Assembly (NCBI GenBank): GCA_003868215.1
Contig: QWDQ01000007.1
Coordinates: 310,001-374,000 of the forward strand
Direction: 5' to 3'
Origin: Pseudophaeomoniella oleicola
Taxonomy: Eukaryota; Ascomycota; Eurotiomycetes; Phaeomoniellales; Phaeomoniellaceae
DNA: 64,000 bases
In this document: one piece after another, positions 8,077 through 60,427 of the stretch
How positions within the stretch are numbered: position 1 is the stretch's first letter
How the letters are laid out: each line of letters begins with the position of its first letter
The notes under the pieces: model-generated
What the model saw: only the letters and a program-made list of their open reading frames with translations
Told to the model about the DNA's origin: nothing
The model's database searches: none
Position numbers and translations under genes: made by a program

Positions 8077-8343
8077 TTATAAATTCTCCAGATCCTCTCC
8101 ATCATTGCCGGGTCGATCTTCACCACTGATCATGGTCTCAATGTCGCCGACTTGTTTTCTTTCCGTAACTTCTCTGTCTCTCAAGCGCTTGCGGATGGCA
8201 CTCATATTCATCAGCGTCAATCCTTGGGCTCTGTTGTTGCGTCCCGCTATTGATGACGGGACACTGTAGCGTTGTCGGTTGTTGTTATTGCGAGCATCAA
8301 CAGAGGTATTGCCGGTGCCCCAAGAATTGACGGCTAATTGCTA
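8077..8343 (-). other. Candidate stop-codon readthrough extension of the PDK-family kinase
   Basis: Directly after the kinase TAG (8343-8341) the same frame stays open for 87 codons (8340-8080) to TAA at 8079-8077. The first two codons are CAA TTA, giving the TMV-type leaky context UAG-CAR-YYA, with adenines at the two positions before the stop. The encoded tail starts QLAVNSWGTGNTSV, has an Asn-rich stretch, then a basic cluster (AIRKRLRDREVTERK) and an acidic end (GEDRPGNDGEDLENL). It has no PTS1 tripeptide and no membrane segment. Alternative 3' splice sites of the last intron at AATAG or TTAG do not give a longer open frame, so readthrough explains the open tail better than splicing. Confidence 0.65.
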
Positions 8344-9748
8344 TTGTAGAGGTTCCGAGGAAGACGAGAGGCGATTGAGATGGAGGTAGACATCTGTGCC
8401 GTAGCTACGACGACAACATAGGATTAGAATCAAAGACATAATAGCTGTACAGCACTGACTCACCCTTCCATGCTTATTAGTTTCAGATCCCCTCCAAAAT
8501 ACCTGGCATAGAGTCTACTGATGGGTAGACCATATCCGAATCCAGCCATAGGCGCTTTGAAGTCGCTCTTGTCGAAGTCGGGATCGAGACTTGGAGTCTG
8601 GTCGACCGTTGTATACATGTATGTCCATACCAAGGGGATGGCGGACCGTGGAATACCTCCCCCTTCGTCACTGATTTTTATAGTAATATCTTCTTTGCCT
8701 TCGGCAACAATAACTTTTGTTACCGGGAATTCCTCCTTTTCAGCCCCATGTCGTTCCACGACAGCACGAAGGGAATTTTTGAGAGTTTCGAAAAGCATGT
8801 GTGACAGATGGCCAGGCACGTACATGAAGTGGAGGTCGTCCCCACAGACAAGTTGGACTTTCGGCGCATCAAACAGGCCATAATGATCTTCGCAAACGAA
8901 GCGTGCATTGTCGATAGCTTCCTCTGCCAGCTCCTTCACATTGGTCTTCGTGCAGATTATACCAACATAACTAGGATGCGCTTTATGTTGCTGTTCTGTG
9001 AGTGCAATGTGTTGACCGATCAGCATACGTATTCCTATTCGCGACATGTAGAAACGGTCCAGGAACGACTGTATCGATGAGTCAATCTGCATGCGCTGCC
9101 TCTTTCGCTTGTATTCCAATATGCCCTGCGCGACGGTAGTGACAACACTATCGTGACGCCTCTTGATCATTTCCAGAGTCTTCGCAAAACGCTTGTTGTA
9201 GTCTGCCATTTCCGGTGGCCAGTCGTTGCCCTCGTCGGTGGGTGCGAAGTAGCGACGGGAGTTGCTGCCAGCGCTCGAGCTGCCAGACTGATACTGGCCC
9301 TGCTTGAGCGATGGGTTCATCGTCACCTGGCTGAGGATCTTGGAAGATGACGCGTTGGTTCTCGAAGGCTTGAGGAGCCGTTCTTTGACTTCCTGGCTCA
9401 AAGATGGTCTCGGGAGTGTGGTGATCTCTTCAAAAGACTGGGCGTACCAGTCCTGAACCTTTTTGATTGAGGGCATGTCACTGAGTCCATCTGGCAGCTG
9501 TCTCAGCTCTTCCACCCGATGGGCTAGGCGGATCGGCAGCTCTTCGGAAAGAAATTGTGAGGCGCGAAACAGCGTTCCTATCATCCACGGTTATTCGATT
9601 GTATATGCGACGTAGCGCCATTGGGTCACTTACCTGTCGATGGCCTCTCTCCAAACTGGACCATCTGCCTCAGACTCACACCTGTCGCCGGGAACAAGGC
9701 ATAATGAGCAATAGTCTCCATCAACCTGTCCGTCTTCTTCCACGACAT
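8341..9748 (-). CDS. Mitochondrial PDK/BCKDK-family protein kinase
   Basis: Predicted 430-aa kinase of the pyruvate/branched-chain dehydrogenase kinase family (yeast Pkp1/Pkp2 type), which phosphorylates and switches off the E1 subunit of a mitochondrial 2-oxoacid dehydrogenase. Exons on the minus strand: 9748-9634, 9577-8464 and 8404-8341. The N-terminal four-helix part contains the family motif RRHDSVV (His near residue 180). The GHKL ATPase domain has the N box (TLKNSLRAVVE, Asn near 306), the G1 box DEGGG near 342 and the G2 box GFGYGLP near 385. A fungal Ser-rich insertion sits at about 113-155. The last exon ends LHLNRLSSSSEPLQ, where I expect family members to end. No classical long presequence is seen. 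The stop is TAG in the context CAA TAG CAA TTA, followed by 87 open in-frame codons, so an extended isoform is likely. Confidence 0.95.

Positions 9749-56566: not shown

Positions 56567-60427
<3,861 letters not shown>

Follow-up and report, generated by a model that had tools for sequence, protein, structure and literature searches.

The window, the whole 64-kb stretch of DNA that was analysed, carries on its minus strand a three-exon gene model (9748-8344) for a PDK-family kinase (Table 1). The 430-aa product scored above the cut-off for both Pfam domains, BCDHK_Adom3 (203.9 bits) and HATPase_c (46.5 bits), and matched PDB chain 1y8n_A (PDK isozyme 3; E 1.7e-80), in which the matched part stops at residue 378 of 419; judged by its domains, the gene product is a member of the PDK/BCKDK family of mitochondrial kinases. 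The frame stays open beyond the UAG that ends the kinase, and a long product, with one residue placed at the UAG, would have 518 aa.

Table 1 Features of the kinase gene, its stop codon and the region 3′ of it (positions in the window)
Feature	Position	Strand	Basis
Exon 1, from ATG	9634..9748	-	translation aligns with fungal PDKs from the first residues
Intron 1, 56 nt, GTAAGT..TAG (model)	9578..9633	-	splice restores conserved STGTLFRASQF
Exon 2, BCDHK_Adom3 and most of HATPase_c	8464..9577	-	gene model and Pfam
Intron 2, 59 nt, GTGAGT..TAG (model)	8405..8463	-	splice yields conserved MEGYGTDVYLHLNRLSSSSEPLQ
Exon 3, up to the stop, ending EPLQ	8344..8404	-	gene model and homologue ends
Proposed leaky UAG stop, preceding codon CAA	8341..8343	-	sequence
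CAATTA, CAR-YYA (Type I) readthrough hexamer, encodes Q-L	8335..8340	-	sequence; definition as in the available text of PMC11166343
Proposed readthrough extension, 87 codons	8080..8340	-	open frame and tail profile match
TAA closing the extension	8077..8079	-	sequence
Predicted extended RNA stem-loop, +3 to +131	8210..8338	-	folding, one sequence
Outer helices +3-8/126-131 (6 bp) and +10-22/113-125 (13 bp, main)		-	predicted
Inner helices +36-43/105-112 and +45-47/101-103; hairpin +79-85/94-100		-	predicted
Best-conserved tail block EVTERKQVGD, beyond the RNA stem	8143..8172	-	tail alignment

The first-pass annotation had placed the TAG at 8343-8341 within CAA TAG CAA TTA, followed by 87 open codons up to the TAA at 8079-8077, and these coordinates are right; its chance figures (1 in 512 for the hexamer, 1-2% for the open frame) follow from uniform base use. 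It had also called this the sole gene end, of roughly 20 in the window, with such a context. In none of the 42 open frames of at least 150 codons in the window (a set that excludes the kinase's own, shorter last exon) does CARYYA follow the closing stop, and the nonamer of a stop plus CARYYA is found nine times in the whole 64 kb.

Type I readthrough is defined by UAG with CAR-YYA, and Type II by UGA, often accompanied by a stem-loop approximately 6-12 nt downstream (PMC11166343; this and the other PMC papers are cited for the portions of their text that were available). The kinase gene has the UAG, the CAR-YYA directly 3′ of it and an open, protein-conserved frame, and in these respects the site is of Type I; the UGA of Type II is absent, whereas a stem-loop at the Type II distance is predicted from the one sequence folded. 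The UAG, hexamer and stem were read from the DNA of one genome, and relatives were compared as protein. The most permissive bases in yeast are A at four positions (-2, -1, +5 and +9) and C at +4 (PMC8087045, Table 2), every one of which is found at the kinase stop; the site departs from the yeast optimum in having UAG, which is less leaky than UGA, and U at +8, which is not the top base (PMC8087045). The CARTAGCARYYA motif is not enriched genome-wide, since the 26-Mb genome holds 60 sites compared with 80 for a reversed control.

Conservation of the extension as protein

Among the best 120 of 4955 homologue matches of the kinase, 108 end in EPLQ, EPLH or EPLS and 12 continue into a tail. A profile built from the tails of these 12 relatives, with the window sequence left out, was searched against the six frames of the window, cut from stop to stop into 2044 segments of 20 aa or longer, and returned a single match, the frame following the kinase stop (8340-8080; E 1.3e-16). 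With the best 120 of 4883 matches from a second search, whose alignment included tails and is therefore biased to tail-bearers, the combined fetched set came to 149 kinase proteins, of which 26 have the tail (E <= 1e-3; 12 profile members and 14 others), 118 end in EPLQ, EPLH or EPLS (EPLQ alone in 114), and five (P0130, P0132, P0135, P0138 and P0144) end shorter or differently. The 118 sequences ending in EPL(Q/H/S) indicate that the position of the stop is conserved.

The tail-bearers belong to four classes of Pezizomycotina, the placement in classes being one that we take as given except for three species that were checked: Eurotiomycetes (Penicillium, Paecilomyces), Dothideomycetes (Aureobasidium, Friedmanniomyces, Curvularia, Paraphoma, Pseudovirgaria), Leotiomycetes (Hyphodiscus, Lachnellula, Sclerotinia, Pseudogymnoascus) and Sordariomycetes (Pleurostoma, Colletotrichum, Neurospora). 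The first-pass annotation had put forward conservation of the frame after the stop as a test of its reading, and at the protein level relatives do show it. The best-conserved part of the tail, EV(S/T)ER(K/R)QVGD, occurs unaltered in 23 of the 26 tails and with one residue changed in P0125, P0013 and P0146; because this block lies outside the RNA stem, it reflects constraint on the protein. It overlaps just the end of the basic run that had earlier been noted as nuclear-like. The last residue is L, I, V or M in 22 of the 26 tails, the exceptions being P0068, with a final T, and P0069, P0072 and P0140, which are fused or named partial. Scored by codon log-odds, the tail (0.20 per codon) is within the range of the kinase (0.07-0.22), which is weak support for coding, since two other frames score approximately 0.10.

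That the stop is an ordinary one, with the 3′ frame open by accident or through decay, is an explanation to which we give practically no credence: a frame of 87 codons would on its own arise by chance 1-2% of the time, and the genome shows no excess of the motif, but the same frame is conserved as protein across four classes and chance is contradicted by the profile match. Barely more probable is a separate small frame, unjoined to the kinase, starting from an internal ATG (codon 44, MNMSAIRK..). In the window, as in several relatives, Met codons are present between the shared GLT and the conserved block, yet residues upstream of the ATG are shared as well (GLT, and in a few sequences Q-L and V), this interval lacks a Met in the Colletotrichum tail P0146, and the kinase stop itself is in a leaky context.

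Used alone as a query, the tail region returned 24 candidates, none at E <= 10; the tail matched nothing but itself in the whole genome at E <= 1, was assigned to no Pfam family, and had one, unrelated, match in the PDB (E 1.7). No sequence likeness was found between the tail and the extra C-terminal part of the PDB PDK3 chain. The extension ends in ENL, which does not fit the consensus of the peroxisomal signal PTS1. Two further PDK-like genes (L004, L006-L008, L010) are present in the same genome, one of them on the same contig approximately 113 kb away, and no such tail was seen at their ends in the frames listed for L006 and L008. Among the genome contigs searched for DNA of relatives there was one locus only, L002, which is bacterial and 30% identical, and a first alignment search of viral contigs gave no match. 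A search with the tail alignment matched phage contigs (L012-L015, stretch RRGTERRQVGDGELELHGEERPA), which we rejected as chance likeness; in L012 the tail-like stretch lies inside an uninterrupted 318-aa frame, presumably that of a cytosine methyltransferase, going by familiar motifs.

Predicted RNA structure 3′ of the stop

The 141 nt 3′ of the UAG fold at -52.4 kcal/mol, with z-scores of -5.53 (200 shuffles), -6.9 (50 shuffles) and -5.59 (100 shuffles). In the run that placed the site at -6.9, none of 1000 stretches of 141 nt drawn at random from the 64 kb was as low; the lowest, at z -5.85 (plus strand, 58682-58822), was below the site's -5.5 estimate, and no other fell below -5. Among the ends of the 42 open frames of at least 150 codons none was as low as the stem (lowest -2.70). 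None of 2000 permutations of synonymous codons that kept the protein reached the energy of the stem, and 3 of 2000 sequences with codons drawn instead from the kinase folded as well. When the 64 kb was scanned in 6386 overlapping windows, 49 were equal to or below the stem in raw minimum free energy, 48 of them with a GC content of at least 0.518, compared with 0.496 at the stem. The stem persisted when 70 nt of upstream coding sequence were added (z -4.47).

Among the 60 genomic CARTAGCARYYA sites, the kinase site has the lowest z (runners-up -3.63 and -3.01), and its downstream frame ranks fourth in length. L019, second best of these sites by structure, was set aside as lying in no convincing gene. 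The stem was assigned to no Rfam family, and it is absent from the repeat-search list, we think because of its bulge. The site is exceptional through the combination of the motif with a protein-conserved tail and strong 3′ RNA structure. Both the stem and the conservation of the tail are beyond what the first-pass annotation, made from the letters of the window, could see.

RNA folding also bears on A-to-I editing, which in fruiting bodies could convert the UAG to UGG (stop-loss editing) and so add the tail. In Fusarium graminearum and Neurospora crassa, hundreds of genes are reported to undergo UAG stop-loss editing (PMC11156358, PMC4817773), and in Sordaria peptides support it for 15 transcripts (PMC6794485). 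Editing prefers an A within a hairpin loop, a preference to which the kinase UAG does not clearly conform: among 1000 structures sampled in each case, its A was in such a loop 380 times for a 61-nt fold and 4 times in a 300-nt context. Editing is described as real in Sordariomycetes and Pyronema and its spread over the fungal classes as not settled, and the available part of the same source has it not identified genome-wide in Aspergillus nidulans or Botrytis cinerea (PMC11156358), whereas the tail is conserved in both of their classes. Neither CAR-YYA nor a 3′ stem is needed for editing, and we regard it as an improbable origin of the tail.

Routes across the stop

Among the 26 tail-bearers, 25 are missing at least one residue from the end of the kinase (P0002 alone keeps EPLQ), and these 25 thus need predicted introns to join the tail, some of which could be real. 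The junctions fall into 12 classes, with breaks at MEG, the normal intron-2 boundary, in 10 of the 26, at YGTD in four, and inside RLSSSS in P0004, P0068, P0111 and P0145. From the protein models we read this as gene finders apparently drawn to a coding frame that they could not reach through a stop. In P0143 and P0123 the sequence resumes exactly at Q-L, as in the window (YGTD then QLAV); these are the two of the 26 tails that open with Q-L, most starting elsewhere. This start fits CAR-YYA, and since the GT-AG rule, if it is valid here, needs the preceding codon to end in AG, it points to a UAG before the Q at this junction. The Colletotrichum tail P0146 opens with GPAV rather than QL and does not fit. 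P0013 runs from EPLH into SRNLTL, and P0002 from EPLQ directly into PMVDEG, a join that might reflect either an intron or loss of the stop.

Two groups of sequences stand out among the models. In Aureobasidium, P0002 and P0069 have the tail joined at different places, in one case straight after EPLQ, and in this lineage readthrough may have been replaced by an intron or the stop lost. Public kinase sequences from several Penicillium species (P0050, P0065, P0072, P0121, P0122, P0125 and P0134) omit YGTDVYLHLNRLSSSSEPLQ to reach the tail; these losses are probably annotation errors due to the in-frame stop. The comparison suggests that public models in several Penicillium, Colletotrichum and other species wrongly drop the end of the ATPase domain.

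Alternative splicing that removes the stop and adds the tail could run from the intron-2 donor at 8463 to an acceptor in the tail, or through removal of an intron within the exon, with its donor at 8391 (GTCTAC) or 8365 (GTCTTC). Enumeration of introns of at least 35 nt and up to 300 nt, with upstream donors from 8500 on, gave 17 formal in-frame GT-AG introns, five from 8463, five from 8391 and seven from 8365. The seven from 8365, a weak donor, would keep VYLHLNRLS, the last strand of the kinase fold, and breaks in the sequences of relatives do occur at such places (the MEG, YGTD and RLSSSS joins above). However, the products from 8463 and 8391 (10 of the 17) would lack the conserved end of the ATPase fold, at least VYLHLNRLSSSSEPLQ, and the donor at 8463 is the only canonical one; graded against the usual fungal donor consensus, 8391 and 8365 agree with it just in their GT. 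The 8391..8341 junction is a trivial outcome of a valine codon and a UAG stop, 12 junction classes among 26 sequences are what predictor artefacts would give, and splicing leaves both the CAR-YYA context and the stem unexplained. Removal of the stop by splicing is for these reasons unlikely, although splicing or editing could act in some lineages.

We conclude that the site is very probably a programmed UAG stop-codon readthrough that makes a minor long PDK isoform. The minor 518-aa readthrough isoform proposed in the first-pass annotation gains support from the conservation of the tail as protein in four classes and from the stop position kept in 118 of 149 sequences. In the proposed mechanism, most ribosomes would stop at the UAG and give the 430-aa kinase, and in a minority a near-cognate tRNA would read the UAG and give the 518-aa isoform, with the CAR-YYA hexamer and the stem helping the reading of the UAG. 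The tail would then alter partner binding, assembly, turnover or regulation of the long-isoform minority; our guess would be a role in partner binding or assembly, because the PDB PDK3 chain runs approximately 40 residues past the fungal stop point. On balance we lean slightly towards a wider reading, in which the TMV-type UAG CAR-YYA and the long stem have been kept since the ancestor of the four classes of Pezizomycotina, giving a fixed minor share of PDK that bears a conserved, regulatory tail, such that termination fidelity feeds into control of the PDH complex.

Comparison with known recoding systems

Readthrough in nuclear genes is well described in animals. For a fungal PDK, no report of readthrough was found in the literature searched by title and start of abstract. 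Fungal cases of readthrough include peroxisomal isoforms at UGA CU (PMC4207609) and yeast PDE2 (PMC3777964), and in Podospora 14 genes possibly need frame-shift or read-through, with four sites seemingly conserved (PMC2441463); the kinase gene might be among these 14 candidates. If the proposal is true, a virus-like UAG signal with a stem has been kept across much of Pezizomycotina in a kinase that gates pyruvate entry to the TCA cycle, and laboratory moulds would offer a clean, testable case of readthrough.

The site shares with the plant-virus Type I sites, such as that of tobacco mosaic virus, a UAG followed by CAA UUA and an in-frame extension; here, in contrast, the gene is a nuclear fungal one, a long stem is predicted after the stop, and readthrough is proposed from the sequence. 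Type II sites (UGA CGG or CUA) have an RNA stem-loop in common with the kinase site, where the main helix begins at +10, but the kinase stop is UAG with CAR-YYA rather than UGA, and a weaker 6-bp helix begins at +3. The peroxisomal readthrough isoforms of fungi (Stiebler 2014, PMC4207609) are likewise minor, C-terminally extended forms of metabolic proteins; theirs arise at UGA CU and carry a peroxisomal signal, whereas the kinase tail ends in ENL. Stop-loss A-to-I editing also recodes UAG and yields a C-terminal extension, but does so by editing of the RNA, mainly in fruiting bodies, and without need for CAR-YYA or a 3′ stem (PMC11156358; PMC6794485). The -1 frameshift of YIP3 (PMC3777964) is again a recoding event with a downstream RNA structure in Pezizomycotina, kept in nearly all those examined, with a 3′ ORF found only there; it differs in being a frameshift, and in another gene, whereas readthrough is proposed for the kinase.
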